Assembly: GCF_029873635.1 (NCBI RefSeq)
Contig: NC_080420.1
Location: forward strand, 123,016,719 to 123,080,718
DNA from: Malania oleifera
Lineage: Eukaryota > Streptophyta > Magnoliopsida > Santalales > Ximeniaceae
Direction of reading: 5' to 3'
DNA length: 64,000 nt
Shown: one piece after another, positions 3,022-60,167 of the stretch
How the letters are laid out: every line of letters starts with the position of its first letter
Position numbering within the stretch: position 1 is the first letter of the stretch
Notes under the pieces: model-generated
Database searches by the model: none
The model's input: only the letters and a program-made list of their open reading frames with translations
Told to the model about the DNA's origin: nothing
Translations under genes and position numbers: made by a program

Positions 3022-5079
3022 AATACAATACCAGAGTGCTAGATTATTCTCAAATTACACATATATAACTAAAATAGGCTACATAACAATACTCCCTTCC
3101 CCAAAAAGACTCACCCTACTAACAGGCCTGCATTGTAACCTCCTCTATCTGCAAGCCTGATCTGCTCGCTTAACTGGATCACCTGAAAAATATTAAACCA
3201 CTGGGATGAGACAAAGCTTAGTAAGACGAAATATGCTATTGCTAGTGTGTGGCAAGTGAGCTACATGCTAGTAAAAGCTGATTTAGAAAATACCATAAAT
3301 AACAAAACTAAGTCAAACATGTATATCTGTTACAATATAAATCATAACTATGTTGCTTAATATAAACTAATTTTCCTGAATGTTTATTCATAATACTGTT
3401 AATATCTATAGGTATGACTATTCTCTGTAAATCTGATAATACATATATATAATAACTGAAAAGATTCTCTAGATGGATAGCTGAAAGTCATGATTTAACC
3501 CCTCATGACAAGGTTGTGCGGCCCGAAGGCGGGATCTAACCTGGCTGGCCGATCAGGGTAAGTCAACTGAACTTCGACAGTCAGATCAGCCCCTCAACCC
3601 ATATCTGATGGGGAGCTTGTCCACAACATAGGCACAATCGACTTCTAAATACCACATACTGTCTGAGTAGTGGTTGCACTCTAAACTGAATATAGCTACG
3701 GTACCCTACTCTGTTGGCTGAATATGGTCCGTCAGGGTCTGATACTATATATATATATAACTGATATTTCTAAAATACTGCTTCTACCATGATAACATTA
3801 TATAAACTAATCTGAATAAACTATAATAACTGAATATCTGAGATATCTGCATAACTGAATAACTGAAATATTTGATTAGCTGTAACAACTGAATGTTATG
3901 GTTCTGTGGTTTGTATATCATAGTATTATGAAAATACTGTAAAATACAAGCTTCTGTACGCATACTGTAAATGTAACACCTCGAACCCTTAAACCCGGGT
4001 CCGGTGCGTTATACTTGATCATATCCTGATAAATCATAATCCATAACATACGCAGCGAAAAACATAATCATAATCTCCATATAACATAATACCAGAGTTT
4101 ACTAATTCTAACTATAATCCATAAATCACCTGCATTTCCTTAAATCTACATAACTCCCAAAACAATTCAGTATTTTCACAATCATTCCTTACTCAATAGC
4201 CTTTAAAACATAAAAACATAAAACTTAGATATTTACATTCTCCAAAATTATAGAAATATACCCTTTTCTTTTTCTATTCCCCAATAATGTTATAAAAACC
4301 TTGAGCTCTAAAAGCTCGATCTCGAGGAAATCCTGAAAAAGATAAATTCATATTCGAGTGAGACACTTCTTAGTAAGGAAGAAACCATATATTAAAACAG
4401 TGTGTGGCCAACATAAGTTTATATATATCATAATATTTAACATTTGAAAATCCTTAACATAATTTTTGAAATCGTTCCCTAATCCTAATCAAACACATGC
4501 AAATGTTTAACCCACGAGATTGCCCGAGGATAGGGGTGATTACCCGCCCATACAAGTAGCACCCCTCTGCTCTGATATTTAGGCAACCCAAAGGTCGCAG
4601 CTAAAGCATACCAGGGCACTCACCTTACTCAGTAAGCCCTCAAGTGATAAATTGATCTCGTAGTCACACAATTCATACAAAAGTTTACCGGTAAAGGCCC
4701 TAAGGATAGAGAAATCTACCCGTCCATACAAGTAGGTTCCCTCTGCCCTAGTACGTTATACAGCTACTGCCATATCTGTAGCTACTAGTGCACTCACCTT
4801 ACTCAGCAAACCCTTAGGAAAAAGGTACGCCTCGCCCAATCATAACATGTTTTACGTACATATATACTTCTAATATCATAATACATCATTCTTTTCTGTC
4901 ATTATACATTCATGCACATTCATTCCTGTTCATAACTTAACTTTGCATTTCGTTTCACTTTAAGTGACTCTTTCTCATTTGTATCATTCACATTACACAT
5001 TTCATTTCCATTCCATTCATTTCCCTTTTTATTTCATTTTCATTTCATACTCATTTTTATTTTAATTCATAAATACTCG

Positions 5080-5182
5080 CCATCTTTCCAACCGTGGTTG
5101 GTTAGCTTTGGTATCCTTTCAGTCGTGGTCGGCATCTTTCAGCCGTGATTGGTTAGTTTCGGCATCTTTTCAGTCGTGATTG
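5080..5182. repeat. Minisatellite in LTR (GCATCTTTCAGCCGTGATTG-like units)
   Basis: About four degenerate units of roughly 20-32 bp built around CATCTTTCAGYCGTGRTTGG. The block sits in the same LTR position as different tandem repeats in the sister LTRs at 38058-38281 and 45791-45900. Confidence 0.75.
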
Positions 5183-5880
5183 TTTCCATGATTGTATTAA
5201 CACTCATATGCAGCATATTTTATATATCATTTTCATACTCATTTCATTTTCTATATATCTTGCATCTCGTATATATAACATAATTCCACACAAAATTCTA
5301 TTTTACTAATGCCACACAATTTAGTAATAAAACTCATACACTGTTTGTAAAATAAGCTAACCAACATTTAATGTTTATATACTAAAAATACCTTTCATGT
5401 CTTACATAAATATTATGAAAATATTTTTCCACTTTTATCAGTTCATTTTCACACATACATATCTAATAAACAACCCTAAATTCGAAAAAAAATATAATTT
5501 AAACAATTGGCATTTTACCCATACTGCAACATATACACATACGTATAACACAATTTATTTTTCCATTAAATTCATAAAAATTCTAATTTAATATATATTG
5601 TTTCCCTTATCTAATTTCTTGAACTACGCCAATAGGGACTCCGAAAAATACCTGCGACGCTCACCCGGACCCTGAAATTAAATTCCTAATTCCAATAAAT
5701 TATTCATGAATAAAATATTATTTAAAATTTCCTAGAGTCATAATTCCCAAATAAATAATAATACCCTTAAATTTAGCTAAATTGTCAAATTTCTCAAATC
5801 TCACTCTCGCTTTGGAGTAGGATCTAGAAAATCCCAATTGAAAAATTACCTACGTCAAAATGACGACGACGACGACTAAT

Positions 5881-5890
5881 ACCACGTGGT
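5881..5890. promoter_or_regulatory. Palindromic G-box ACCACGTGGT in LTR
   Basis: A perfect 10-bp palindrome with a CACGTG core, followed by GTACCCGATCGTCGATTT. It is kept in the sister LTRs at 38982-38991 and 46611-46620. CACGTG is a known plant bZIP/bHLH binding core; any role here is inferred. Confidence 0.55.
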
Positions 5891-6135
5891 GGTACCCGAT
5901 CGTCGATTTAATCACATATTAACAGCAAAATTGAGAAAATGAGGAAAAATTACCTTTCCCCAAGAACAGTGCCTAAGCTGTTCCCATGAAAAATCTTCTC
6001 TAGTAGAAATGTCGACAGCGGAACTAGGATTCTAATGGCACCTTCCGTTTCCCGATCCGTCGCAAACTCATCGAATAATTGAGAGAAGGAGAGAGACCGA
6101 GACGGAGTTGCTGGCACGTAGAAATATTTTTCAGA

Positions 6136-6146
6136 GGGGGGGGGGG
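6136..6146. repeat. Poly-G run in LTR
   Basis: Eleven G in a row. The sister LTR at 44722-47205 has a 15-G run in the same place. Confidence 0.9.
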
Positions 6147-6218
6147 CGTGCAGCTCCTGTCTTTCTTCTTCTTTCTTCTTTCTTCTTTCTTCTTATCTCT
6201 CTGTCAATAACTTAACTT

Positions 6219-6221
<3 letters not shown>

Positions 6222-6268
<47 letters not shown>
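6222..6268. repeat. (TA)n microsatellite
   Basis: About 23 TA units near the U3 end of the minus-strand solo LTR. Confidence 0.95.
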
Positions 6269-6271
<3 letters not shown>

Positions 6272-7046
6272 TTAATTATTATTATTTTTAAATCCAATAC
6301 AATAATATTTAATTTAACAACTAGTTATTTAATTATTTAATTTATCTTAATTTAATTTAATTTCTTTAATTTTTATTTTTTTAATTTAATTTTTTTCTTT
6401 TTCCCACGTCATTCCTTTTATTTATTTATTTGTTATTTTATTTATTTTTTTTTCTAAATTATTTTAATCCTTTTAAATTTTCGGGTCTTTACAGTAAATC
6501 ATGGTATTATGAAAATTATATAAACCCTGTGCTAATCTAATATTAAACTCATGCCACACAACTAAATATCAATATTATCAGGCTCTGAAAACTGTCTGAA
6601 TAATAATTTTTTAAAAACATATGATTTGTACTTAATCATAATAGAATTGCCTAACATAACATATTTCTCTTATCTGATTCCTGCTAAAGTCCCCTACTGT
6701 GACAGGTCCTACACCCGCAGAGTTCCCCACTCAACACCTTGAAAACAACATTTACCATAACAAAATATCACTATTTCTTTTACTACTACATTTACTACAA
6801 CTGCTGGAAAGCCACATATTAAATAAAAGGCCTTACCTTGAATTTGAGATGAAATTCAACTTCGTCCCACCAACGATCCACTCTAGCAAACTTGGAGAGA
6901 ACCTTCCCAGGAGCGTCGTGGTGGCCTTAGATCATCGATCCGACGACTAACGGAGCCAGAATCAGAGAGAGAAGGGAGAGAAACCATAGAGGAGAGAGAA
7001 AAGGAAGATTTAGTTGAGAATTTCGCTAAAAATTCGAGATTAGGAC

Positions 7047-7252
7047 TATTTATACTCTGACCTTTGTCAACGAGTCACATCACCTCGTTGACGAGGTCAA
7101 AAAGGAGGTTCGTCGATGAATGCCTTCTCCTAGTTGATGAAATTCAGAAACTGGAAAAGCAATCTCTCGGTATTTCCTCGTCAATGAAACGTGCCTTCGT
7201 CAACGGGATCCTCTGTACCCTCATCGACAAGTCCCCTGTATTCGTCGACGAG
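7047..7252 (-). promoter_or_regulatory. LTR promoter: TATA box plus eight-unit palindrome array
   Basis: On the minus strand TATAAATA (7047-7054) lies 8 bp from the first of eight degenerate copies of TTCGTCGACGAA. Units start at 7063, 7084, 7109, 7130, 7177, 7196, 7220 and 7241, so spacing is 21, 25, 21, 47, 19, 24 and 21 bp. The 47-bp gap carries CTCTCGGTATTT (reverse of AAATACCGAGAG). The same layout recurs in four other LTRs of the window. Which protein binds it is unknown. Confidence 0.75.
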
Positions 7253-7286
7253 GCCCTGATTAAATTCCTTAGGTTATTATAGGACA

Positions 7287-8380
7287 GTTGCAGCCACTCC
7301 ACATCCCTGAGTGGAAGTGAGACCATATATCCATGGATTTCGTCATAGGTTTACCGTCGGCGCTATATGGTCAGAATGCTATCTGGGTGATTATTGACCG
7401 ACTGACGAAGATTGCCCACTTCCTACCTATTAAAGTTAGCTACCCTATGAACAGACAGACGTAGATCTACATTCAAGAGATAGTTCGACCCCATGGAAGG
7501 CCAGTATCTATAGTCTCAGACTGTGACCCACGTTTCACATCACAATTTTGGAGGAACTTGCAGGAGGCCTTGGGGCCTCAGTTATCATTCAGCATGACAT
7601 TTCATCTTCAGACTGATGGGCATATAGAGGGGATGATCCAGATACTTGAGGATATGCTGCGAGCATGCGTGCTGGATTTCGGGGGTAATTGGACCCAGTA
7701 TATGGCGCTGGTTGCATTCGTGTATAATAACAGCTATCAGGCCAGCATCGACATGACACCTTACAAGGCATTGTATGATAGGAGGTTCCATTCTACATTG
7801 TACTGGGATGAAATGGGTGAGAGGCAAGTCTTGAGACTAGAATTGGTGCAGCAAGCGTACGATAAAGTCCGACTAATTAAAGATAGAATCAGTGTAACTT
7901 AGAGTCGGATGAAAAGCTACATAGATACTCACCGCTGTGAATTGGAGTTTGAATTGGAAGATCAGGTGTTTTTAAAAGTAGTACCATTGAGATTTGGGAG
8001 GAAGGGTAAGCTGAGCTCTAGGTTTATTGACCCATTCGAGATACTTGAGAGAGTGAGTCTAGTCGCCTACATGCTAGCTTTACCACCAGCTCTATCGAGA
8101 ATACACGACATATTTTATGTTTCTATGTTAAGAAAATAAGTCTCAGATCCCTCCCACGTGATTAGTTACGAGGAGATAGAGCTCAGAGATACACTAGCAT
8201 ATGAGAAAACGCCAGTGCAGATTCTAGACAGAAAGGAACATGAATTGCATACTAAAAGAATTCCATTAGTAAAAGTCATGTGGAGGAATCATGTAGTAGA
8301 AGAGACCTCGTGGGAGTTGGATGACGAAATATGACAGAAATACTCGCACCTATTCGGTGGGATCGGTAGTAGTTAGAAAT
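7287..8380 (+). pseudogene. Element A pol fragment: integrase core and chromodomain
   Basis: Continuation of the pol of element A after the solo LTR. It shows the integrase core ([10 protein letters not shown], then SDCDPRFTSQFW where SDRDPRF is usual, then QTDGHIEGMIQILEDMLRA), the GKLSSRFIDPFEILERV segment and a C-terminal chromodomain-like stretch (PLVKVMWRNHVVEETSWELD, 8266-8325). In-frame stops near 7461, 7900, 8138 and 8332 kill it. The C-terminal chromodomain and domain order point to a Tekay-type chromovirus. Confidence 0.88.
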
Positions 8381-8651
8381 AATAAATTAGATTGAATCAG
8401 TAATGTTAAATTCAGTGCAATAGTTGAGGTATGAATTGTATGTTAGATTATAGGATAGATAGTGTTTTTGGTTTTGAGAGAGTTTTCTTCTATGTGTATA
8501 TTTGTAATCTCCCAAAACCCTGAATGTAACCATGATATTCCTCCGCTATAAGTAAGAGTAAGTAATAAAATAAGTAGTCAATTTTTCTTAGAGGATGATA
8601 TATAATACAGATAGCAAATTTCGAGGACGAAATTTTATAAGGAAGGAAGAA
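8381..8651 (+). other. 3' untranslated part and polypurine tract of element A
   Basis: Non-coding stretch between pol and the 3' LTR. It ends in the chromovirus motif TTTCGAGGACGAAATTT (8618-8634) and a purine run AAGGAAGGAAGAA directly before the LTR start. Element C has the same arrangement at 34734-34768. Confidence 0.75.
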
Positions 8652-8721
8652 TGTGAAGACCCAAAAATTATAATTATTAAAAAATAGAGAAGAAGGAGAA
8701 ATTTAAAGGGGCAAAACAGGG

Positions 8722-8916
8722 TTCGTCAACAAATGCCCTGGTTTTGTTGACGAACTCCCTAAAGGATTTGTGGATGAAGTTTAGTGTTTGTCAACAAAGA
8801 GATATCGAGAGGGGGTGTTTCAAACCCATTGGTTCGTCGACGAAATCCTTACCTTCGTCGACGAACTCCCTTCTTCACTTCGTCGACGAAGCCACATGTC
8901 AAGTTGTTTATAAATA
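8722..8916 (+). promoter_or_regulatory. LTR promoter: seven-unit palindrome array plus TATA
   Basis: Seven copies of a 12-bp palindrome start at 8722, 8743, 8767, 8787, 8833, 8854 and 8879 (spacing 21, 24, 20, 46, 21, 25). The last three are perfect TTCGTCGACGAA. The wide gap holds GAGATATCGAGAG. TATAAATA follows at 8909-8916, 18 bp after the last unit; the other arrays have 8 bp. Confidence 0.75.
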
Positions 8917-9127
8917 TGCGAAAAATCAAATTTTGGCGAGAAAACCTATATTCCACTATTTTTTTTCTCGAGAATTTTGGCTGCTCTAACTTCTCTCTAC
9001 AAATCTGGCCCCGTTTCTTCTTGGTTCGAAGATTAGAAGCTATAACGTTGATCCTGGGGAGATCTTTTATAACTTAGCCAGAGCATAATTTCAATTTGAG
9101 AAGTTGGGCACTATCCCAAAATCAGTG

Positions 9128-11214
9128 TGTAACGACCTGCTTAACTTATCATATAGTTAATCATATTTAATAAAGTCAACCCGAACCCGTGGGTAACGGG
9201 GACACACCTAAAGTACACAGAGGAAACCTAGGTAGTAGTAAATATAAATTACATTCATCAAACCATAAAATACATGATACCAGAGTTAATTACAATCCAC
9301 AATATTACTGTACTCATATATAATCCCCAAAATATCCAAAAATATAACTATATCTAGGATCCTGCATAAAAAATCTCCTGATCCTAGTTCAAAACTTACC
9401 CTCCTAACGGGGTAATAACTACTGCTTCAACGGCAACCTCAGTCCGCCAGTCTATCTGGGTTTCCTAAAAATTTATTTAAGTTAGGGTGAAACACCTCTC
9501 AGTAAGGGAAAATAAACTAAATACAGTTATGTGGCAACATGAATATTCAATGCTATTATAGATATACAATACATTTTGCATACTAGAAAATATTAATCAT
9601 TTAATAACTGCATAAACATATACTTTCATATTTCTAATAAATCGTTCTGTTCATGAACTGTCTAATATAGCTAATAATACTGAAATTTACCCAAGATGCA
9701 TAGCTAGCTGATGTCATGTATTACCCCCCATGACATATTGTACAACCTGATGGCGGGACCCGACAATGGCTGGCCGACCACTGCCGAGTAAAAAATATCT
9801 GTAAGTACGATGGGCCTGCCACACCCTGGTCCGGACTACCAGTTGGACGTCTACAACTCTACACTGAAAGCCACATCGACTATCCATCTCCCAGCCCCTC
9901 TACATGTAGGGGCGGTTAGCACAAGTCTAAAACATAATAATCTCATCTGTATAGCTACGGTACCGTGCTCCTGTAACTGAACTGAACTATCATCCGGATT
10001 CTGATAATATATAATACATGATAATATACAGTTTAACGTAAATAGATTGATATCATTTTCTATAATAGTATAAATACATACGGCCTTACGCCGATTACTT
10101 TCACATCTGCAGTCTTGCTTCGAACATTTCATAAATATGGTTCTGCGCCGAAATCATACATAATTCACGGCCTTGCGCCGCCTATCAATCACGGCATTGC
10201 ACCGAACATTTCATAAATAATAATATGAATAAACATGTTATTTATCATGTATTGCAAAATCGTAATGTACTGCATTATTCCATATCTTTTGAAAACATAC
10301 TTTATCTATATAATTGCTTTAACATAATACTTTTCACATAAAATAATATTCATGCCACACAATGTTGAATAAGACCATATATTCTATACTGAAATCATAT
10401 TTTCTAGCATTTCATACTAATACATACATTTCAATATAATAGCAATATTTTGCCAAATAAACATTTTCTCAATGATACTCACATAAAATACATGTTTTTT
10501 GAAAATAAATCTATTAATAGTTTCATAATAATTTTCATGGAAAAAAAAGCTATTTTAGTTTATTCTCTTACCTGATTTTTGCAAAGAAACCCCCTAAAAT
10601 ACACTCGTCCTGTACTTGCAAGGTTCCCTGTTCAACACCCTAAAATCAACATTTCTTATAACTAAACTTCAATATTTCTTCATGTACAACATTTCATATA
10701 ACTATGGAAAGACCAAATTTTGAATAAAAAGTCTTACCTTAAAAAAGGGAAGAATTCCAAAGTAGCTCCACCGACAATCCACTCCGATAGATTTGTAGAG
10801 AACTTTCCTAGGAGCGTCGTGGTGGCTTCAGATCTTCGAACCGGCGAGAATCTAGCCCGAGATCTTAGAGAGAAGGGGGAGAAATCGAAGAGGAGAGAAA
10901 GAGAGAGTGAGCGTTCTGCGTGAAATTTCTGAGAGAAAATCGAGTTTAGGGCTATTTATACACTGACCTTCGTCGACGAGGTCAAGAAGGCAATTCGTCA
11001 ACGAACTCTCACCCCTCGTCGATGAAATTCAGAATCGCCAAAACTCCCTCTCGGTATCTTCTCATCGACAAAACACGTCCCCGTCGATGAGTCCCTCATG
11101 TGTTCTCGTCGACGAATCCCCTGTGTTTGTTGATGAGACTCTATTTATTTACCTTCTTTTATTCCTTTCTCCTTCTTCCATTATTTAAATACCGTAATTA
11201 TCTGGGTCACTACA
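9128..11214 (-). mobile_element. Solo LTR (gypsy) inside the 3' LTR of element A
   Basis: A 2.1-kb unit from TGTAACGACCTGC to GGGTCACTACA. Flanks are CAGTG (9123-9127) and CAGGG (11215-11219), a 5-bp TSD with one substitution; the uninterrupted sequence in LTR B supports CAGGG or similar. Read on the minus strand it begins TGTAGTGACCC, has TATAAATA beside a palindrome array (10953-11137), and ends GCAGGTCGTTACA. It has no coding capacity and is the same family as the solo LTR at 2862-7281. Confidence 0.88.
10953..11137 (-). promoter_or_regulatory. LTR promoter: TATA plus seven-unit palindrome array
   Basis: The minus-strand TATAAATA (10953-10960) is 8 bp from the first unit. Units start at 10969, 10994, 11015, 11061, 11080, 11105 and 11126 (spacing 25, 21, 46, 19, 25, 21). 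The wide gap carries CTCTCGGTATCTT. Confidence 0.75.
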
Positions 11215-12290: not shown

Positions 12291-12770
12291 CCCCATGAAC
12301 CTTGTGGCGATTCCCAATCGTCAATATGGACTATAACGAAATCGGAATCGAAGAGAGAGAGAGAGAGAGAGAGAAAGGGAAAATCGTAGGTTTAGAGAGA
12401 GAGAGCGAGAGGAGAGAGAAAATACGCTGAAAAATGAGGGTTTTCATATTTATAGGCCGACGTTCATCGACGAGTTCAAGTGATTCGTCGACGAACCCAT
12501 GAAGGTACTTCGTTGATGATGACGCTAGTTCGTCGACGAACCTGAAATTTCTTGAAATTTCCCAAACTCTCGGTATCTTTTCGTCGCCGAAATACGTGTA
12601 CTTCGTTGACGAAATCTACGAGACATTTGTCAACGAAGACCCTGGGTTCGTCGACGAATCCCTACTATTCTCCCTTTTAAATTTCCTTCATTTTTCTTAT
12701 TCTTTTCCTCTCTCTCTTTATTTTCTCTTCTTTTATTATTTTTATTAATTAAATTTTCTGGGTCTTTACA
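12291..12770 (-). mobile_element. 5' fragment of a minus-strand gypsy LTR
   Basis: Read on the minus strand the piece starts TGTAAAGACCCAGAAAA at 12770 and runs about 480 bp. It includes an eight-unit palindrome array, TATAAATA and a GA-rich leader (GA run 12351-12374), then stops abruptly near 12290 against the LTR of element A. The rest of the LTR and any internal region are missing. On the other side it abuts a copia gag remnant. Confidence 0.7.
12447..12658 (-). promoter_or_regulatory. LTR promoter: TATA plus eight-unit palindrome array
   Basis: The minus-strand TATAAATA (12447-12454) is 8 bp from the first unit. Unit starts are 12463, 12484, 12509, 12529, 12580, 12602, 12626 and 12647 (spacing 21, 25, 20, 51, 22, 24, 21). 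Three units are perfect TTCGTCGACGAA. The wide gap holds CTCTCGGTATCTT. Confidence 0.75.
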
Positions 12771-13741: not shown

Positions 13742-14133
13742 GCCTTAGCGCACTCAAAATTAGGGTTGAGAATAATTCATTCGTGCAAATGGCTACCTAG
13801 CAAACAAAAAAGGCAAAGAAAGCGAAGAAAACAAAAACTTGGAGAGGTACTACTGCCGCTTGGAAGCATTAGACCCCCTGCCGTTTGATACTTTGATCCA
13901 TATGTTCAGCCCTTTGTCGGAATGGGCTGGTAAGAAATAATCTCAGAAGCTTTTGGTTGTCTTCTTGCTGCGAAAACCCATTTCAAGCTTACGCTTGAAG
14001 ACTCTCGGTCAAATATCAATTTAAAAAACTGAGTTTGATTAATGGGTAGCTGAAAAAAAAATCGCAAATTATTCACCAGGATCTCAGAATTTAAGCTATT
14101 TCTCATCTGGGTCATTTGGGTTCTCTCCCATCA

Positions 14134-16251
14134 ATGCGGTTTTCGTTGATCCCATGTCGAACTCACTGCACATATGCTGCATATGCAGTTTCCCCCAACT
14201 CTCAGATTTCTCGGTTTGCTCGCCTTGGCCAAATTGACCACGCCCGAAGGGTGTTCGATAGAATTCCCAGTAAGAACATTGTTTCTTGGAACTCAATAAT
14301 CGCTGGGTATTTCCAAAACTGTTTGCCTCGAGAAGCTAAGATTCTGTTTGATAAAATGCCTGAGAGGAACACAGTTTCTTGGAATGGTTTGATTGCTGGG
14401 TATGTTAAGAACAGAATGGTGAGTGAGGCACGTAAAATATTTGACATGATGCCGGAGCGCAATGTGGTTTCGTGGACTGCAATGGTTAGAGGTTATGTAG
14501 AAGTGGGTATGATTTCAGAGGCAGAATCTTTGTTTTGGCAAATGCCGGAAAAGAATGTCATTTCTTGGACGGTGATGTTAGGTGGTCTAATTCAGGAAGG
14601 TCGGATTGACGAGGCTCGCCAACTTTTCGATATGATGCCTGTAAAGGATGTGGTTGCTAGGACTAACATGATAACTGGGTATTGTCAAGAAGGTCGTTTA
14701 GCTGAAGCGCGTGAGCTTTTTGATGAGATGCCTCGCCGAAATGTGATTTCTTGGACTACCATGATTTGTGGTTATGCACAGAATCAACGGGTGGATATTG
14801 CTCGGAAGCTCTTTGAGGTGATGCCGGAGAAGAATGAGGTGTCCTGGACTGCTATGTTGATAGGGTACACTCAATGTGGACGGATAGAAGCGGCATCAGA
14901 GCTTTTTGATGCAATGCTGGTGAAGTCGGTCCCTGCTTGTAATGCAATGATCCTTGGGTTTGGTCAGAACGGGCAGGTAGCTAAAGCAAGGGAAGTTTTT
15001 GATAAAGTGCGTGAGAAGGATGATGGGACATGGAGTGCAATGATCAAATGCTATGAACGGAATGGATGTGAATTGGAAGCACTTGATTTGTTTGCTTTGA
15101 TGCAAAGAGAAAAGGTCCAGCCAAATTTCCCTTCTCTGATCAGTGTTCTTTCTGTTTGTGCCAGCCTGGCAAGTCTTGATCATGGTAAACAGATTCATGC
15201 ACAGCTGGTGAAATCCCAATTTGATAATGATGTGTATGTTGCCTCTATTTTGATGACAATGTATGTCAAATGCGGTGATCTTGTTAAAGCAAAACAGGTG
15301 TTTGATAGGTTTTCTTCCAAGGACATTGTTATGTGGAATTCTATTATAACTGGTTATGCCCAGCATGGCTTAGGAAAGGAAGCTTTAGGAGTATTCTCTG
15401 AAATGCGCTATTTAGATATTGAACCAGATGATGTTACTTTTGTTGGTGTTCTCTCAGCTTGCAGCTACACTGGAAAGGTTAAAGAAGGCATTGAAATTTT
15501 TGAGTCAATGAAATTTAAATATCAAGTGGAGCCAGGAACTGAGCATTATGCTTGCTTGGTGGATCTCCTTGGCCGAGCAGGCCATGTAAAGGAGGCTATG
15601 ACTTTAATTGTTAAAATGCCAGTAGAAGCAGATGCCATTGTTTGGGGTTCTTTATTAGGTGCATGTAGAACTCACGGGAACTTGGATTTGGCTGAAGTTG
15701 CTGCAAAGAAACTTGTACTGCTTGAGCCAAAGAATGCTGGGCCTTATATCTTGCTGTCAAATATCTATGCTTCAAAAGGAAGATGGGGTGATGTTTCAGA
15801 GCTGAGGAAAACAATGAGGGCGAGGAGTGTGAGTAAATCACCGGGTTGTAGCTGGATCGAGGTAGATAAACAAGTGCATATGTTTACAGGTGGGGAAAGT
15901 GTCTGCCACCCAGAGCATACAATGATTGAAAGGATGTTGGAGAAGTTAAGTGGATTGTTAAGAGAAGTTGGGTATTGTCCCGATGGTAGCTTTGTGCTGC
16001 ATGATGTGGATGAGGAAGAGAAGGCACACAGCTTGGGTTATCACAGCGAGAAACTGGCTGTGGCATATGGGCTTCTGAAGCTGCCTGAGGGGATGCCCAT
16101 TCGGGTGATGAAGAACCTTCGGGTTTGTGGCGATTGCCATTCTGCAATTAAATTAATTGCAAAAGTAACTGGACGAGATATCATATTGAGGGATGCAAAT
16201 AGATTCCACCATTTTAAGGATGGCTACTGTTCTTGTAGGGATTTTTGGTGA
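14134..16251 (+). CDS. PPR protein, PLS-DYW subclass (At1g56690-like)
   Basis: Single-exon gene of 705 residues. I start at ATG 14134 because the in-frame codon at 14116 is TTG, not ATG. About fifteen PPR motifs in PLS order fill residues 30-560, many with the signature FDxMPxRNVVSWTAMIxGY. A PG box (SPGCSWIEVD, about residue 569), an E/E+ region and a C-terminal DYW deaminase domain follow. Zinc/active-site motifs are HSE (637-639) and CGDCH (665-669), and the protein ends CSCRDFW, a variant of the usual DYW. Proteins of this class bind organellar transcripts and perform or recruit C-to-U editing. Overall it closely resembles Arabidopsis At1g56690, predicted mitochondrial; the short N-terminus fits an organelle target signal. 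The edited site is not inferable. It converges with the NIMIN gene. Confidence 0.97.
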   Translation: MRFSLIPCRTHCTYAAYAVSPNSQISRFARLGQIDHARRVFDRIPSKNIVSWNSIIAGYFQNCLPREAKILFDKMPERNTVSWNGLIAGYVKNRMVSEARKIFDMMPERNVVSWTAMVRGYVEVGMISEAESLFWQMPEKNVISWTVMLGGLIQEGRIDEARQLFDMMPVKDVVARTNMITGYCQEGRLAEARELFDEMPRRNVISWTTMICGYAQNQRVDIARKLFEVMPEKNEVSWTAMLIGYTQCGRIEAASELFDAMLVKSVPACNAMILGFGQNGQVAKAREVFDKVREKDDGTWSAMIKCYERNGCELEALDLFALMQREKVQPNFPSLISVLSVCASLASLDHGKQIHAQLVKSQFDNDVYVASILMTMYVKCGDLVKAKQVFDRFSSKDIVMWNSIITGYAQHGLGKEALGVFSEMRYLDIEPDDVTFVGVLSACSYTGKVKEGIEIFESMKFKYQVEPGTEHYACLVDLLGRAGHVKEAMTLIVKMPVEADAIVWGSLLGACRTHGNLDLAEVAAKKLVLLEPKNAGPYILLSNIYASKGRWGDVSELRKTMRARSVSKSPGCSWIEVDKQVHMFTGGESVCHPEHTMIERMLEKLSGLLREVGYCPDGSFVLHDVDEEEKAHSLGYHSEKLAVAYGLLKLPEGMPIRVMKNLRVCGDCHSAIKLIAKVTGRDIILRDANRFHHFKDGYCSCRDFW

Positions 16252-23398: not shown

Positions 23399-25875
23399 TG
23401 TAGAGACTCGGAAAAATTTTATTTATGAAAGTAATAAAAGAAAAGAAAGAGAAAGGAAAGGAATGAGAAAAGGGGAAAGAAATTTAAAAGGGGTATCAGC
23501 AGGGGTTTGTCGACGAACCCAGAATCTTTGTTGACAAATGTCCTTCTAGGTCTTGTCAACGAGAAGATACCGAGAGTCAAGGAATTTCAGAGAATTTAAA
23601 GTTCGTCGACGAACAAGCCTCCTCGTCGACGAAGTGTCTTCATTGGCTCGTTGATGAATCACTTTAACTTGTTGACGAAGCCTGACCTATAAATAGGTCT
23701 TTCGTCATTTTCCAGCAAAATCTTTTCCCTTTTCTCGCTCTCACTCTCTCTCTCTCTCTCTCTTCTATTCTTGTTTTGTTGTTTTGACGATCAGAAGCTA
23801 CCACAGGGTTCATAGGGAGATTCTCTACAACTTAGTTGGAGCAGATTGTTGATTTAGAGGCCTTGGGCACCACTCCAAAATTAGGGTAAGTAAGGTATTT
23901 TAGGGTTTAAGTGTTTATTTGGAGTATATAGAGCTTAGGAAGTGTTAAATGAGAAATATTCTGGGAGATGTGTTGATTGAGTTGGGAAAAATGTGAATTT
24001 TAAGGTTTTGAGTTTCGAACGCCGCAGGCGTAGGATTTGGGTTTTTAACAGGCCTCTTAGTAAGTCAGGTAAAGGGAAAAATTATAACAATTATTTTGGG
24101 AAATGAATTGTTGATTTAAAGTATGTGAACATGAAATATGATATTTTACTTGTGGTTATTATATTATGAATATTAGGTGAAATTTTGTGTGGCATGAGGA
24201 AATATGAAATGATTGTTTAATACTAAGAATGTGATTGAAATTGAAATATGTGAACTGTACTAAGAAATGAGATTATGATATGATTATATCGAACTATTTT
24301 ATACAAATATGAGGAAATGGAAACCTAGTAATATTTGCATATATAAGTATGAAGATACGAGGTTTATACACTGAATCGATGAAATGTGAAGCCTAAATAT
24401 ATTTTTACTAGGAAATGATGAAATATGTTATACAAACATATTTTTACAGTGATATGATAAAATATGAGATACAGATGCATTTTCATTGAAATAATGATAT
24501 ATGTAATAGAAAGATATGTTGGTACTTTTATACAGAAATACTGAATTGAGTTTTATACTGATATGAGATGAAATATGAACTGAAATGATGAAATGAAGCA
24601 AAAAACGATGAGAATATTATTGATGTGATAAATGTACCAATATATTGAAATATGAATATTGCAATGTGATTACTGTAATGTGAATACGAGAATGTGAATA
24701 TGGAAATGTGAAAATGAGAACCCTAATGGAATGTTGTTAATTGAGAGTACGATATCGTTGCTAGCAAGGTGTTAGTACAACCACACGATCTCGTGGAGAG
24801 TGTGGCGTGGTAGTTGATTAGGCCAGTGAGAAGGGTAGAGATGCCCCTGGAGTCTGGACCAGGCATAGGCAGGTCAATCGCACTACAGACATGTGGTTTC
24901 ATTGTTTTGATCTAACCAGGTAGGCCAACTACGGTTAGGTCCAGCCTTCGAGCCGCACAACCTTGATCATGGGAGGAAGCATGACGTGGAAAATATCCTT
25001 AAGGCAACCATAAGTTACAGACATGATATGTACTTATTACCGTGGATACTCATGAGCTATATTATGAAAGGAAAATAAGAAATGGAAGAATGTGGATGTA
25101 ATGGTATAAATAATTAAGGTGAAATAAAACTCTCCGCCTAAGCTCTTTCTGAGTAAGGTGAGTACCTTGATAAGTATCAGTTGTAGCCGCACCCGAACTA
25201 TTCGGACAAGGTTACAAACGATATTAGAGCAGAGAGACACTACATGTATGGGTATGTAATCTTCCCTATCATCCGGAACTTTCGCTGATAAATATTGGTT
25301 GTATATGTATGAATTTGAGAAATAGTATTAAAGTTTATAAAATTATGTTTTATAAGTATATGATTATGCATACATATCTTTTTATTTTCTCAAAAGATAT
25401 AATTATTTGAATAAGTATATCATGATATAGCTAAACTCATATGTCACACATTATAAATAATTTATTCTGTCTTACTAAGAGTTGTCTCACCCAAATATTT
25501 AAATGTTTCAGGAAACTATAACAGATGAGTAAATAGAGTTTCAAGATAAAAGGGAGTTGTTACCTTGATAAATAGAGTGAGTATTATGTGCTAAGAATGT
25601 GTAATTCCCCTAAAGTATTTTGTTTATTTTTGGGAATGTGTTTAGATATGCGTATACATGGATGGATAGTTCTCTGGCATCTGTATTCTGGATAATATGT
25701 ATATATGGACTTCCGCTGTTAAGTATGTTTTTATATGATGGACTGATTACTCGGTATCCCACTTCGGGTCGGGTTATGTTGATATGGTATCAGAGTTGTG
25801 ATGTTGCAGATGTTGAATTAATATTTATTATTTACTAGAGATGAAAAAAAAATGGTATGAAATCGGGGCGTCATA
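23399..25875 (+). mobile_element. 5' LTR of gypsy element B
   Basis: A 2.48-kb LTR from TGTAGAGACTCGG to GGCGTCATA (the final CA decayed to TA), followed by a tRNA-iMet PBS TGGTATCAAAGC at 25879-25890. It carries the palindrome array and TATA at 23506-23695, a CT-rich leader, an ACGCCGCAGGCGTAGG motif near 24020 and the LTR tail typical of Tekay-like elements. Only a short internal stub follows. Confidence 0.85.
23506..23695 (+). promoter_or_regulatory. LTR promoter: seven-unit palindrome array plus TATA
   Basis: Units start at 23506, 23527, 23552, 23602, 23622, 23647 and 23668 (spacing 21, 25, 50, 20, 25, 21). The wide gap carries AAGATACCGAGAG. TATAAATA at 23688-23695 starts 8 bp after the last unit. 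Confidence 0.75.
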
Positions 25876-27041: not shown

Positions 27042-29729
27042 TATAACACCCAGAAAGTGATAAGCTTGAGAATGAAAAAAATAATATAATAATTAATTAA
27101 TTAATTAATTATTAATTAAATAATTATTATCATTAATTAAATAATATTACCAAACAAAGCTTCCTAAAGCTTTTAAAGCTTCAGGAAGCATAAGTGAATC
27201 TAAAGAGCCCCCCGCCCCTTTCCTTCTATTTTATTCAACGTGCGGGAGTCTCTCTCTCCTCTCGTTCTCTCTCCCTCTCTCCTCAGTTCCGTGACGGATT
27301 TTTGCCCGATCGAAAATCAGAAAATACCATTGGGCTCAATTTTCCCCTGCCGTCATTTCTACCGAAGCGGATTAATGGTAGGAGCGGCGTAGGCGTAACT
27401 CTTGGGGTAAGCCAAATTTATGCTTTTAACTCATATTCTTGCAAATTAAAAGCACAATCGACAATCAGACACCATCACGAGAATCTAGGGATAATTCTCT
27501 ACAAGTCTAGTGGAGCGGAATTCTCGTGGGGTCGTCGTAGGCATAATTCCAAATTTGGGATAAGGGGTTTATTAAGGGACTTAATATTATTTAATTAGTG
27601 TTGATTTAGAAATGCTAGAATATTGAGCATATAGGGTTGAAATAGGATTTTCAGAATTTAGGACTCGGTAAGCGCCGCGGGTGTAATTTCTGGACTAGTC
27701 ATAGTTTAGAAAATTAAGTAAGAGTATTAAATATTAGTTTAAATGTTAATTTGAGGTATATGAAGCTTAGGAAAGGTTATATGGGTATTATTTTGGGGAA
27801 ATGAGTTAATTAATCTCAAAAAAATGCAAATTACAAGATTTGAGTTTCGGGCGCCAATAGTGTAGGATTTGGGTTCTAACGAGAATCTCAGTAAGCAAAG
27901 TAGGTGGAATAAATTATAGCAGTATTTTTTTGAATTACTGTTTGAATTAATATATGAAAATGAGCATATGATATTTTGTCTGAAAATTATTATGATCTAA
28001 ATATTAGATAAATTGTGTGGTATTTGAGTAATATTAAATTGTGATATTTTGGAGTGTGAAATTAATATATTCTGAATATTAGATGAAAAATATAAAATAT
28101 AACGATGAGTAATTTCTAAGAAAATATTGAAATGAGAATTATTGATGTGATTAGTGGAAAATAATGAAATATGGTATTTATATGTGAGTAGAAATGATTT
28201 TGTATGAAAAATGAGATTTTGCAAATTACTGATACGAGTATTTTGAGAAATGTTGAAACTCGTGAAACACGATATATACTATTATGAGATAATGAAATGT
28301 GCACAGAAAATGATGAGAACAATTATATTGAGATAAATTGAGATATACTGATATGTGATTAATGATGTATATTGATATGAAAATACTGAAATGTGAAAAT
28401 GGGAAATATGAATACTGCAATATGGAATTGCAATGTGATTAATGAAATGTCAATATCGCATAATGATTGCGGGTATATGGTAGTGAACCCTGATGGATGA
28501 TTGTGATATTGAGCACGGTACCGTTGCTAGTGGTGTAGTGCAACAACACGAAGTCTTAGAGCGTGTGGCATGATAAACGACTCAGCCATTTTGTAGGGTT
28601 GTTGGGCCCCTAAGTCCGAATCAGGGTTATAGGCCGACCAGTCATACTACAGACGCGATATGTGATATGATATTTTGATCTAACCGAGTCGGCCAATCGC
28701 GGTTAGATCCAGCCTTAGGGCCGCACAACCTTGACCATGGGGGGAAGTGTGGCTTGGAAAGAAAGATCCTCAAGGTAGCCATGAGTTATAGACGCGATGT
28801 TGGTACCAGGTACCAAAGATACTTATGAGCTAGATAGTAAAATGGAAACGGAAAATGAAAGAACGATAAAATTCGTTAAAATAAGAAATGAAAGAATTAA
28901 TGGTAATTGAGAAATAGGGAATGATAAAATTGAGAAATGGAACTGTGTGAGTTAATAACATAAATAATTGAGGCGAAATGAAACTCTCCGCCTGAGGGCT
29001 TACTGAATAAGGCGAGTGCCCTGATAGGTATCAAATGTGACCATACTTGGCTGCATAACGTGTTAGGGCAGAGGGAAGTTACCTATATTGGCGGGTAATC
29101 TTCCCTATTCTCGGGAATTTCATGGGTAAATATGTATTGGAAATCATTGAATTTGATAAATGGTTTTAAAGCTTATAAAAACTAGTGTTTTATATCTATA
29201 TGATTATGAGAATGTGTATATCAACATATTTTCTCATATGAAATGATGATTTGAAAAGTAAAGTGTATTATAACTGAATTCTTATGGCCACACACTGTAA
29301 ATAATTTATTCCTTCCTACTGAGATGTGTCTCGCCCAAATTATCTAAATTTTTCAAGGAACAGGGATAGGCCAGGTGATAGGGCTCCATGATCATAGGGA
29401 GATGGGACCCTAACACACAGGGTGAGTTTTTGAACTAGGGGAGGTGTAATTCTCCTAGAGTTGAGTTGTTTTTGAGTTTGTGATGATGATGTATATTTAT
29501 GTATGTTGATACTTTGGGTATTGTATTCTAACTTATATATATATATTGTCTTCCGCTGTTAGGTTGTATAATAAAATAACTTTTAACCCGGTACCCAATG
29601 CGGATCAGGTCATGTGAATGGCAATAGGGTGGTTGACGTGGCTGATTTATGGATGTTGTTGCTGAGGAGTGAATATGTATTGATTATTGATTATTTATAA
29701 AACATTTGTACAAAAATCAGGGTGTCACA
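27042..29729 (+). repeat. 5' LTR of element C
   Basis: A 2.69-kb LTR. It starts TATAACACCC (consensus TGTAACACCC, one G-to-A change) and ends GGTGTCACA. It contains a 31-bp near-perfect palindrome (27159-27189), a CT-rich leader and GGAGCGGCGTAGGCGTAACT-type motifs. Confidence 0.93.
27159..27189. promoter_or_regulatory. 31-bp palindrome in LTR C (5' copy)
   Basis: GCTTCCTAAAGCTTT and AAAGCTTCAGGAAGC form an inverted repeat with one mismatch around a TTTTAAA centre, about 117 bp from the LTR start, where the other LTR family has its palindrome array and TATA. The 3' LTR keeps it at 34965-34995. It could be promoter sequence or a hairpin. Confidence 0.55.
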
Positions 29730-29732
29730 GTT

Positions 29733-29744
29733 TGGTATCAGAGC
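29733..29744 (+). other. Primer-binding site of element C
   Basis: TGGTATCAGAGC, complementary to the 3' end of initiator tRNA-Met, four bases after the 5' LTR. Confidence 0.92.
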
Positions 29745-34500: not shown

Positions 34501-34903
34501 TTAGAGTTAAGCCAATCAGAATGAAAGGAATAATATTGTGTATTTTTATTTGTATAGTGTAACATAAGATAGATAGAGTTTTTAGTTTTAGAACATGAAT
34601 GGCTTTGGGAGAATTTTGAATAGTTGTAATCTCTCAAAACCCTCGTTGTAACCATGGTATTCCTTTTTCATAAGCGAGGGTAATTAATAAAATTGAGGTG
34701 TTTCTCTAAGGATGGGAAGCACATGAATAGCAAATTTCGAGGACGAAATTTTTATAAGCAGGGGAGAATGTAACACCCCAGAAAGTGATAGGCTTGGGAA
34801 TGAAAAATAATAATAAAATAAAAATAAAAATAATCAATTATTAATTAAATTAAATAAATTATTATTATCATTAATTAAATAATAATACTATAATATACAT
34901 TAG

Positions 34904-34908
<5 letters not shown>

Positions 34909-34937
<29 letters not shown>
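34909..34937. repeat. (TG)n microsatellite
   Basis: About 14 TG units present in the 3' LTR of element C but not in the 5' LTR, so it arose after insertion. Confidence 0.9.
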
Positions 34938-34944
<7 letters not shown>

Positions 34945-34964
34945 ATTAAAAAAAACCAAACAAA

Positions 34965-34995
34965 GCTTGCTGAAGCTTTTAAAGCTTCAGGAAGC
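34965..34995. promoter_or_regulatory. 31-bp palindrome in LTR C (3' copy)
   Basis: GCTTGCTGAAGCTTT and AAAGCTTCAGGAAGC, one mismatch; partner of 27159-27189. Confidence 0.55.
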
Positions 34996-37292
34996 ATCAA
35001 TGAATCTAGAGAGCCCCCCCGCCCCTTTCCTTCTATTTTCTTCAACGCGCAGGAGTCTCTCTCTCCTCTCGTTCTCTCTCCTTCTCTCCTCCGTTCCATG
35101 ACAGATTTTCGCCCGATCGAAAATCAGAAAATACCGTTGGGCTCCATTTTCTGCTACCGTCATTTCTACCAGAGCAGATTGATGGTAGGAGCGGCGTAGG
35201 CGTAACTCCTGGGTAAGCCAAATTTATGTTTTTACCTCAATTTCTTACAAATTATAAGTCCAATCGACGATCGGACACCACCACGAAAATTTAGGGATAA
35301 TTCTCTACAAGTCTAGTGGAGCGAAATTCTCATGGGGTCGTCGTAGGCACAACCCCAAATTTGGGATAAGGGGTTATTAAGGGGCTTATTATTGTTTAAT
35401 TGGTGTTGATTTAGAATTGCTAGAATATTGAGCATCTGGGGTTGAAGTAGGATTTTCAGAATTTAGAGCTCGGATGAGTGTTGCGGGTGTAATTTCGGGA
35501 CCCGCAGGCATAGTTTAGAAAATTAAGTGAGGGTGTTATATATTAGTTTAAATATTAATTTAAGGTATATGGAGTCTAGGGAATGTTAAATGGGTATTAT
35601 TTTGGGGAAATGAGGTAATTAATCTAGGAAAAATGCAAATTGCAGGATTTGAGTTTCGGGCACCAAGGGGGTAGGATTTGGGTTCTAACAAGACTATCAG
35701 TAAGCCAAGTAAGTGGAATAAATTATAACAGTATTTTTAGAATTACTGCTTGAATTAATATGTGAAAATGAGCATATGGTATTTTGTCTGAAAATTATTA
35801 TGATATAAATATTAGATAAATTGTATGGCATTTGAGCAATATTAAATTATGATATTTTGGAGTGTGAAATTAATATATTTTGAATATTAGATGAAAAATG
35901 TGAAATATAATGATGAGTAATTTCTAAGAAAATATTGAAATGAGAATTATTGATGTAATTAGTGAAAAATAATGAAATATGGTATTTATATGTGAGTAGA
36001 AATAATTTTGCATGAAAAATGAGATTTTGCAAATTACTAATATGAGTATTTTAAGAAATGTTGAAACACGTGAAACATGATATATACTATTATGAGATGA
36101 TGAAATGTGCACAAAAAATAATGAGAACAGCTATATTGAGATGAATTGAGATATACTGATATGTGATTAATGATGTATATTGATATGGAAATATTGAAAT
36201 GTGAAAATGGGAAATATGATTACTACAATATGGAATTGTAATGTGATTAATGAAATGTCAATACCGCATAATGATTGCGGGTATGTGGTAGTGAACCCTG
36301 ATGGATGGTTGTGATATTCAGTACGGTACCATTACTAGTGGTGTAGTGCAACTACACGAACTCTTGGAGCGTGTGGCGTGACAGTCGACTAACCCATTTT
36401 GTAGGGTTGTTGAGCCCCCTAAGTCCGGATCAGGGCTATAGGCCGAACAATCGTACTACAGACGCGATATGTGATATGATATTTTGATCTAACCGGGTCG
36501 GCCAACTGCCATCCAGCCTCGGGGCCGCACAACCTTGACCATGGGAGGAAGCATGGCGTGGAAAGAAAGATCATTAAGATAACCATGAGTTACAGATGCG
36601 ATGTTGTTACCAGGTACCAAGGATACTCATGAGCTGGATAGTAAAATAGAAACAGAAAGTGAAAGAATGATAAAATTGGCTAAAATGAGAAATAAAAGAA
36701 TTAATGGTAATTGAGAAATAGAGAATGAAAAAATTGAGAAATGGAACCGTGTGAGTTAATAACATAAATAATTGAAGCGAAGTGAAACTCTCCGCCTGAG
36801 GGCTTACTGAATAAGATGAGTGTCCTGATAGGTATCATATGTGACCATACCTAGCTGCATAACGTGTTAGGGCAGAGGGAAACTACCTGTATGGACGGGT
36901 AATCTTCCCTATTCTCAAGAACTTTGTGGGTAAATATGTGTTGGAAATCATTGAATTTGATAAATGGTTTTAAAACTTATAAAAGTTTGTGTTGTATATA
37001 TATATGATTATGAGAATGTGTATATCAACGTATTTTTTTAGATGAAATGATGATTTGAAAAGTAAAGTGTATTATAACTGAACTTTTATGGCCACACACT
37101 ATAAATAATTTATTCCTTGTTATTGAGATATATCTCACCCAAATTATCTAAATTTTTCAGGGAACAGGGATATGCTAGGTGATAGAGCTCTGTGATCATA
37201 GAGAACTGGGACCCTAACACATAGGGTGAGTTTTTGAACTATGGGAGATATAATTCCCCTAGAGTTGAATTGTTTTTGAGTTTGTGATGGTG

Positions 37293-37293
<1 letters not shown>

Positions 37294-37352
<59 letters not shown>
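37294..37352. repeat. (GT)n(TA)n microsatellite
   Basis: Expanded in the 3' LTR of element C compared with a short TA run in the 5' LTR near 29537. Confidence 0.92.
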
Positions 37353-37358
<6 letters not shown>

Positions 37359-38057
37359 TGATACTCTGGGTATTGTATTCTAACTGATATGTATATATTG
37401 TCCCGCTGTTAGGTTGTATAATAAAATAATTTTTAACTCAGTACCCAATGCGGATCGGGTCATATGAATGGTAATAGGGTGGTTGACATGACCGATTTTT
37501 GGATGTTGCTGATGAGGAGTGAATATTTATTGATTATTGATTATTTATAAAAAATTTGTACAAAAATCGGTGCATCACAGATACATTAGGCAACCCAGAG
37601 GTCATAATTAAAGCATACCTGGGTACGCACCTTACTCAGTAAGCACTCAAGTAATAAGTTAATCTCGTACTCACACCATTCATACAAAAGTTTATTGGCG
37701 AAAGCTCTCAAGAATAGGAAAATCTACTCACCCATACAAGCAGTTTTCCTCTACCCTAGCACGTTATGCAACCTACTGTTATACCTGATACAATCAGGGC
37801 ACTCGCCTTTCTCAGCAAGCCCTTGGGTGAAGAGTTTGCCTCGCCCAAACGTAACATGTTCTACTAGCATAAATACTGCTAATACCATAATACATTATTT
37901 TGTTTCCTATTTTTCTGCATTTCTCAATACTTCATATTTCCATCTTTTACTTTTCATTTCATTTTACTATACGTGACTCTTTCCCATTTTTCATTGTTCA
38001 CATTTCACATTTCATTTCCATTTCATTCGTTTCCATTTTTATTTCATTTCATTTCAT

Positions 38058-55290: not shown

Positions 55291-55434
55291 ATAAACAATT
55301 AAAAGAAAGATCTGTTCTTCCCTTAGCAGCAATTACCACAATTACACAACAAAGACTGCAAAACATTTTCTACATCTCAAGGAATAGAGAATGCTGACCC
55401 ACAGGCCACAAGGGAACTTTATTGATAAGAAAAC

Positions 55435-55859
55435 TGTTAGGGATCTAGGAACAACAATTAAAATAAACAAGAAAAATAGGAACACCAGATTTAACGTGGT
55501 TTGGTCCAATCTGACCTACGTCCATGGAGCACACCGAATTTCACTATAATTTGGGAGAAAATACAAAAGGAGGAGGAGGTACCACTCAACTCAACTCACC
55601 CTTTCTCACACCTTTCTCTCTCTCTCACCTTCAACACAATTACTCTCACACTCACATACACATCACATATATTCACGCACACACATCTCCATTATATAGT
55701 TGGATGGGGATGGATAGTAAAGGAAGGAGTTAATGGGATTCAATGGGATAAGCACCGACACTCCAGCACATCAAAGCTGGGTCTCCGCAGGTCATCAAGG
55801 CTATCTTTCTACAGCTCATCAAGGGCTCATTAAGGCTCTGTTTCCATTTTAGCTCAACA
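55435..55859 (-). repeat. 3' LTR of copia element 2
   Basis: Direct repeat of 61865-62276. Both begin TGTTAGG with ATCTAGGAACAACAA and end CTCAACA (plus-strand reading). Confidence 0.93.
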
Positions 55860-55989
55860 ATCTCCCACTTGGAAACAGAGACACCATCTCAACTAGTATA
55901 TAGATAAATGATGTGCTCAAATCTATCTTCAAGCATGAAGACCAATTAAAGTTGAGCACAACTTCAACTTCTCTGTAGTCACCACCTTT

Positions 55990-57430: not shown

Positions 57431-57435
57431 CTTCA

Positions 57436-58084: not shown

Positions 58085-58089
58085 CGATC

Positions 58090-60162: not shown

Positions 60163-60167
60163 CGATC

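Follow-up and report, generated by a model that had tools for sequence, protein, structure and literature searches.

Five retrotransposon long terminal repeats (LTRs) in a 64,000-nucleotide stretch of the Malania oleifera genome (C4:123016719-123080718 in an assembly with 510 contigs and a length of 1.494 Gb; we call this whole stretch the window) carry arrays of degenerate copies of the 12-bp palindrome YTCGTCGACGAR next to a TATA box, TATAAATA. We searched the genome throughout and found that such arrays recur, with their units at nearly fixed steps and at a few fixed distances from the TATA box, amid spacers that have diverged. From these sequences, we argue that the array is probably a promoter-proximal enhancer in the U3 region of a large group of Ty3/gypsy LTRs and that it would be bound by a putative dimeric protein.

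Five arrays in the window share a layout of two blocks of four

Units were scored as 12-mers against TTCGTCGACGAA, with a C>T or G>A change counted as half a mismatch. A scan of the window placed the five arrays at the positions and on the strands given in an earlier note on this DNA. Array E (23506..23679, plus strand) has seven units, which start at 23506, 23527, 23552, 23602, 23622, 23647, and 23668. Its TATA box (23688..23695) lies 8 bp past the last unit, and an LTR-start-like word, TGTAGAGACTC, was recognized by eye upstream (23399..23409, plus strand). Array A (8722..8890, plus strand) also has seven units, of which the three nearest the TATA box are intact, and here TATAAATA lies 18 bp past the last unit (8909..8916). 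The other three arrays are on the minus strand: B (7063..7252, with eight units and TATAAATA at 7047..7054), C (10969..11137, with TATAAATA at 10953..10960), and D (12463..12658, with eight units and TATAAATA at 12447..12454). Each of these three ends 8 bp from its TATA box. LTR D has a start-like word, TGTAAAGACCC, at 12760..12770 (minus strand), and the gap at the center of this array, from unit 4 to unit 5 (12541..12579, minus strand), opens with AAGATACCGAGAG, which is similar to the word that recurs in other central gaps (see below). Array C has six scored units plus a degenerate seventh, which was seen by eye in slot 3. When the LTRs are aligned, the part of B, D, and E with unit 8 has no counterpart in C; the 8-bp gap to its TATA box is nevertheless kept.

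The steps between unit starts are 21, 24, 20, 46, 21, and 25 bp in array A; 21, 24, 19, 47, 21, 25, and 21 bp in B; 21, 44, 46, 21, and 25 bp in C; 21, 24, 22, 51, 20, 25, and 21 bp in D; and 21, 25, 50, 20, 25, and 21 bp in E. These had been described as steps near 21 and 24–25 bp with one gap of 46–51 bp, which is what we measured, although the layout of the five arrays is better put as two blocks of four (21-25-21 / 46–51 / 21-25-21), roughly symmetric about the center. Within the first block the steps are 21, 24–25, and 19–22 bp, and within the second they are 20–21, 25, and 21 bp. Counted from unit 1, the five arrays share a lattice at about 0, 21, 45, and 65 bp and then at 111, 132, 157, and 178 bp.

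At up to three mismatches, the window has 49 matches to the unit, as compared to 14.5 in 100 shuffles (standard deviation 3.9, largest 23; none reached 49). With a stricter score, 35 of the 46 matches in the window are inside the five arrays, and ten windows simulated with a Markov model had 3–12 matches each. The arrays are thus not a product of chance.

The arrays recur through the genome beside the TATA box

Across the genome, YTCGTCGACGAR occurs 171,286 times with at most one mismatch, versus 2,314 times for the same pattern read backwards. The core TCGTCGACGA is followed by TATAAATA within 30 bp in 17,084 cases (9,085 + 7,999), in which one array may count twice (via its last two units), versus 3 cases (1 + 2) for the control. 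Two intact units are found at a step of 12–41 bp in 7,754 places, versus none for the control. At the first 50 distinct places listed, this step was 19 bp (1 place), 20 bp (16), 21 bp (14), 24 bp (12), 25 bp (6), or 40 bp (1).

Among the first 100 matches listed for the core with TATAAATA, the gap from the end of the unit to the TATA box was 8 bp in 40 cases, 29 bp (that is, 8 + 21) in 29, 18–21 bp in 14, 10–11 bp in 11, and some other distance in 6. The 18-bp gap of array A is a lone exception within the window but not genome-wide, where there are several classes of TATA distance (8, 10–11, and 18–21 bp). By eye, GGTCAA, which we take to be W-box-like, lies between the array and the TATA box in 6 of the 14 listed matches with an 18–21 bp gap.

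We also examined 20 stretches, each of 10 kb, at arbitrary positions on eight chromosomes. Clusters of at least three units were present in eight of them, for a total of 10 clusters. A rough extrapolation from these 20 stretches puts the number of arrays in the genome in the tens of thousands.

To compare arrays, we used two samples. The first is 26 arrays with TATAAATA, taken from the window, from listed palindrome matches, and from the arbitrary stretches. The second is 20 consecutive listed matches, chosen solely for having an intact core at most 30 bp from TATAAATA (the blind loci). At least six of the eight slots of the lattice were filled in 17 of the 20 blind loci, and all eight were filled in 11. 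L078 has four units only, L069 is without the last two, and L074 is irregular. In the combined set of 46 arrays, all eight slots were filled in 19 and at least seven in 29. Because the slot windows were set after seeing the steps of the blind loci, slot filling is descriptive only, and the step spreads and spacer lengths derived from these windows are not evidence for fixed spacing. Five arrays with unit-8 gaps of 32–101 bp (six if a gap of 43 bp is included) were probably mis-anchored by the slot routine and are kept in the counts. Sampled arrays mostly have 7–9 units. The distance from the LTR-start-like word to unit 1 is variable, at about 27–124 bp (16 of 37 arrays, those in which such a word was found).

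Spacing is kept while the spacers diverge

Nearest-neighbor steps, which involve no slot constraint, fall into narrow classes. In the 26 arrays, there were 82 steps of 19–21 bp, one of 22 bp, 42 of 24–25 bp, and one of 27 bp, and the rest were at least 44 bp. In the blind loci, there were 69 steps of 19–21 bp, 36 of 24–25 bp, 26 of at least 44 bp, and no others. Steps of 22–23 bp are almost absent across the samples.

Among the 26 arrays, pairwise identity was 80% for units, 45% for spacers, and 52% for the downstream sequence (325 pairs), and it was 51% for the upstream flank (301 pairs). Only in the three closest pairs do the spacers match the units in similarity (88% and 84%). The proximal tetramer is complete in 32 of the 46 arrays, and its spacers form 21 clusters at 70% identity, yet the steps are 19–21 or 24–25 bp. 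This bears out the earlier proposal that the spacing is kept while the spacers diverge: the spacers are not as conserved as the units, the spacing is not random, and the arrays are not a satellite free of TATA boxes.

Could the array instead be a neutral remnant, left in the LTR by chance, of a tandem repeat or satellite? Its unit is repeated and degenerate, and the short spacers of one array resemble each other slightly more (mean score of -0.01) than they resemble spacers from different slots of other arrays (-0.11). However, spacers of one array differ from each other about as much as spacers from the same slot of different arrays do (-0.03; shuffled spacers score -0.14), the steps are unequal yet fixed, and the core is linked to the TATA box (17,084 versus 3). 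The conserved 4+4 steps amid unrelated spacers also argue against a leftover as the whole story, and we give this explanation hardly any weight. Recent tandem slippage is unlikely to lie behind the array.

A carrier element of the Ty3/gypsy type

Among the array-bearing elements, one was tested whole. This is L039, from the arbitrary stretches, which is a frame-broken but nearly complete element whose two LTRs are 88% alike and both contain the array. Its repeats are at 1254-2986 and 8274-10000 of the locus (the second runs to the locus end). Between them, in broken frames, Pfam identifies gag (3714-4052), protease (4352-4750), reverse transcriptase (5118-5894), RNase H (6009-6533), the integrase zinc-binding domain (6534-6821), rve (6948-7319, at 28.6 bits, which is below the cut-off of 32.6), and SH3_Tf2-1 (7567-7860). 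With reverse transcriptase and RNase H predicted upstream of integrase and between two LTRs, L039 is classified as Ty3/gypsy. It has 28 stop-to-stop pieces of at least 70 amino acids, of which 10 (nine of them internal) were scanned. Seven plus-strand internal pieces had matches, and two minus-strand internal pieces and one piece from the 3' LTR had none. In these 10 of 28 pieces, Pfam found no domains beyond those of the gag, protease, reverse transcriptase, RNase H, and integrase kinds.

In the window, array A begins 70 bp inside its LTR, after the apparent 3' end of a gypsy internal region. At 8620..8662 (plus strand), TTCGAGGACGAAATTT and a purine run are followed by TGTGAAGACCC from 8652, where we placed the start of the 3' LTR by eye. 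Degenerate pol remains precede it at 7321..8334 (plus strand), in several stop-to-stop pieces. These include an SH3_Tf2-1 domain (7903-8139, plus strand; PF24626, E = 9e-21) and a weak match to Chromo (8140-8334, plus strand; PF00385, E = 0.054, below the cut-off), and the pieces at 7321-7464 and 7465-7902 have no match in Pfam. The piece at 8140-8334, which we presume to be Tekay-like from its look, has no match among solved structures. A C-terminal chromodomain would place an element in the chromovirus lineage of Ty3/gypsy.

Units change as methylated CpGs do

At the three CpG sites of 311 units, we counted CG 692 times, CA 112 times, TG 111 times, TA 6 times, and other dinucleotides 12 times. 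Changes from CG to CA or TG are the pattern left by deamination of methylated CpG on either strand. The inner non-CpG bases of these units were unchanged in 1,225 of 1,244 cases (calling units by their motif favors low change). Variation in one half of the palindrome is nearly independent of that in the other, with 110 complementary outer pairs versus 101.7 expected and inner pairs at or below expectation.

Between the two LTRs of L039, the units are identical at 65 of 80 aligned bases (81.2%; 14 transitions and one transversion), the array spacers at 121 of 136 (89.0%), and the rest of the LTR at 1,360 of 1,482 (91.8%). Because the units differ more than the rest of the LTR does, they were unprotected after that insertion. 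The sameness of units across unrelated spacers would then stem from the copies that transpose, and the closest pairs of arrays, in which spacers are as alike as units, are as this would predict. Our inference is that active lineages, but not dead copies, maintain the units and their spacing.

Changes of the CpG type hint at methylation of inserted copies, as would be expected if the array were a host silencing target, with a host repressor reading the palindromes and shutting the LTR down. The earlier note had raised this alternative. We disfavor it by reasoning from selection: a harmful target should vanish from active lineages, and near-intact units instead recur amid unrelated spacers. It seems very improbable to us.

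The units are also CpG-dense, which together with these changes would suit an anti-silencing or insulator platform, whose sites would attract a protein, of the host or of the element, to hold the LTR open or to protect it from neighboring heterochromatin and would not activate it directly. Arrays of sites borne by transposable elements are known from the Su(Hw) sites of Drosophila gypsy (PMC4717254) and the VANC targets of VANDAL elements (PMC5735166). But the VANC targets are tandem repeats that, in the passages of that paper drawn on here, vary considerably among related elements, whereas our arrays have fixed spacing and mostly 7–9 units. An insulator would not need a few fixed TATA distances. 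The Pfam scan of 10 of the 28 L039 pieces found no extra kind of domain for such a protein, although a protein without a Pfam domain would escape it. We consider this platform unlikely, though it deserves more attention than a silencing target does.

Lastly, the array could act as RNA: an array in U3 would be near the 3' end of the genomic RNA, where adjacent palindromes might form hairpins for packaging, dimerization, or reverse transcription. Neighboring units are complementary, and the outer bases of adjacent units pair in 303 of 416 cases, versus 294.6 for shuffles within slots (24 of 1000 were as high) and 291.2 for shuffles across slots (3 of 1000 were as high). Over all positions, 2,207 of 2,496 pair, versus 2,194.8 (29 of 1000 shuffles were as high). 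However, the excess of pairing is about 3%, which the relatedness of copies could yield; the CpG positions show no excess (1,091 of 1,248 versus 1,090.4); and the link to the TATA box would be unexplained. An RNA element is, in our judgment, very improbable.

A proposed mechanism

The palindromic unit, its position near the TATA box, the nearly fixed count and steps, and the apparent upkeep in active lineages together favor an enhancer. With U3 and the transcription start as we would place them, each YTCGTCGACGAR would be one site for a putative dimeric DNA-binding protein. These sites would be paired about two helical turns apart, two pairs would make a tetramer block, and a short recurrent word, AATACCGAGAG, would lie between two such blocks. 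On the TATA side, the block would end at a family-specific distance from TATAAATA (8, 10–11, or 18–21 bp). Cooperative binding would require fixed steps, and this need would explain how spacers can drift when the units and the distances between them do not. The bound array would then recruit RNA polymerase II to the TATA box of the LTR. New copies would begin with intact units; inserted copies would become methylated at CG, their CpGs would deaminate, and the array would decay without selection. To our knowledge, none of the half-sites of IDD, WRKY, NAC, bZIP/TGA, or ARF proteins fits the intact unit well, and we name none of them as the binding protein.

Several observations weigh against the enhancer or limit the evidence for it. 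The earlier note had suggested a protein cooperating on one face of the DNA. Alignment of all sites on one face fails at 10.5 bp per turn, where the eight phases of a typical lattice have a resultant of 0.07; it is 0.36 at 10.2 and reaches 0.88 only at 11.0. The spacers are not free everywhere, as 26 of 35 central gaps begin with a word resembling AATACCGAGAG, and TGACGTG (presumably ABRE/G-box-like, where ABRE is the abscisic acid-responsive element) or a form decayed by one step is in 17 of 43 spacer-7 sequences. The flanks of the units are asymmetric, with a G-rich run at -3 to -1 and no matching C run behind. An old duplication behind the array is possible, given the small excess of similarity among spacers within an array. 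Element F, whose long LTRs (27044-29730 and 34771-37580 of the window) are 88% alike and which has an exact primer-binding site of the tRNA-Met type at 29733, is about 70% like E downstream of the promoter, yet it has no palindrome array; three AAGCTT palindromes are in its U3 at 27157-27181 instead. As for the samples, all array comparisons are within one genome, 36 of the 46 arrays lie within the initial 10 Mb of a single chromosome, and some arrays are near-identical copies (such as L061 and L062), so related copies are not independent. Because units were called by their likeness to the motif, the identity between units and the low rate of non-CpG change are partly circular; the step sizes are less so. 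The comparison of decay is from one LTR pair.

At 10.5 bp per turn, the members of a pair do share a face, and each pair is rotated by about a quarter turn from the one before. Fixed steps without a shared face would suggest a defined particle rather than alignment on one face. Tentatively, then, the enhancer may be an “LTR enhanceosome,” in which one palindrome-binding dimer occupies eight sites as four two-turn pairs that advance by about a quarter turn, with the higher-order particle under selection at the TATA box. We view this more specific proposal as plausible but short of probable. If it is true, LTRs by the tens of thousands would be under the control of a single protein in this plant.

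The grammar of promoters is often flexible, and here copies with unrelated spacers amount to a natural experiment on spacing in which only certain distances survived. Palindromes at fixed distances amid changed spacers point to a rigid docking site for a putative DNA-binding protein. If one protein reads the lattice, then a large share of the LTR promoters in this plant could be approached through that protein, and the decayed copies show how a promoter of this kind comes apart as its CpGs are lost.

Other features of the window and the sampled loci

Some LTRs appear to be chimeric (L039 8274-8600 and L041 704-840; identified by eye and, for L039, also by a search for start words). They have a second start-like word, TGTAATAACCC, about 27 bp upstream of unit 1 and within an older LTR that begins with TGTAACGACCC, and palindrome units left from before remain about 53 bp upstream of unit 1. 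Such remnants, at -53 to -55, are also present in L016, L048, L065, L075, and L077, where no second start word was found. In two loci, arrays lie head to head about 650 bp apart (L021 3998-4643 and L041 346-1013), carried by elements that went in with opposite orientations, each near the other's LTR start. A survey of 12 plant genomes reports, in the part drawn on here, that nested elements do not commonly target LTRs and have only a weak preference for palindromes (PMC6911290).

The window also contains a PPR-DYW gene (14095-16251), whose best named relatives are from the flowering plants Castanea and Camellia (81%, among 120 listed of 7,221 matches). The segment 1057-1785 has a pair of direct repeats, each about 300 bp long and 87.5% alike, that are 125 bp apart, with a PBS-like word (one mismatch) at 1356, which resembles a miniature retrotransposon of the TRIM type (terminal-repeat retrotransposon in miniature). 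A copia-type element is at 55432-62254 (minus strand), with repeats of about 370–390 bp that are 84% alike and a gag_2 piece at 60684-61241.

A pattern scan for viral relatives of the array gave 11 contigs of 60–71% GC with 0–3 scattered units of the degenerate pattern and no TATAAATA, which we took to be chance matches. When the array was translated as protein, there were three candidates with shared words, none at E <= 10.

Comparison with known systems

Among the open-access papers listed for LTRs, U3, TATA boxes, gypsy, chromoviruses, and palindromic motifs, we found no description of this array. Of the matches listed for the unit's letter strings in open-access papers, none was about an LTR, and searches of that literature for CGTCGACG with plant factors gave none evidently about this site. 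Tobacco Tnt1 is a Ty1/copia element. Like the arrays, its BII boxes are repeated protein-binding boxes in the U3 of a plant LTR; they are described as binding defense-induced factors, their sequence differs, and the text examined has no comparable eight-site lattice (PMC3316501). The Drosophila gypsy insulator, with 12 Su(Hw) sites, is likewise a cluster of host-protein sites in the regulatory region of an LTR retrotransposon, but, as described in the part of the source used here, it is from an insect, involves another protein and motif, and forms an insulator, whereas our sites adjoin the TATA box (PMC4717254). In Arabidopsis VANDAL elements, a short motif has amassed in noncoding DNA of the transposon and is read by a sequence-specific protein; by the portion of the account cited, however, that protein is the self-encoded VANC, the motif is YAGTATTAY, and the repeats are gained and lost among related copies (PMC5735166).

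The closest precedent, as far as the sections of the paper used here describe it, is the palindromic repeated motifs (RMs) upstream of the LTR TATA box in 13 Sireviruses, which are Ty1/copia elements; these motifs were called Sirevirus-specific (Bousios et al. 2010, PMC2829016). The RMs have dyad symmetry, number at least eight copies per element, and are associated with CpG islands; most of their LTR copies cluster before the TATA box, in the LTR's upper half; and 12 of the 13 elements have a CGG-CCG signature in their RMs. Additional copies upstream of an ENV gene and multiple PPTs are further features counted for them. The word “spacing” appears in the paper once, within the title of a reference. 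The arrays of Malania are likewise palindromic, many-copy, and upstream of the TATA box, and the RM of the Vitis element, CGGTCGACCG, has the GTCGAC core that is common to our unit (PMC2829016). However, the gene order and Pfam domains of L039 are those of Ty3/gypsy and not Ty1/copia, and over 311 units the motif YTCGTCGACGAR has no CGG-CCG signature. Here, the core is TTCGTC-GACGAA, the 4+4 steps are rigid, the TATA box is mostly 8–21 bp away, and the array starts a short way past the LTR-start-like word, at the distances given above. The earlier note knew of no named element with this layout. Palindromic motifs upstream of the TATA box had been published, for Sireviruses (PMC2829016), but the Ty3/gypsy carrier and the 4+4 geometry are, within the reach of our searches, new. 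Palindromic repeats near the TATA box are thereby extended from the Sireviruses of Ty1/copia to Ty3/gypsy, and the comparison suggests that the two groups may have converged on the same promoter design.
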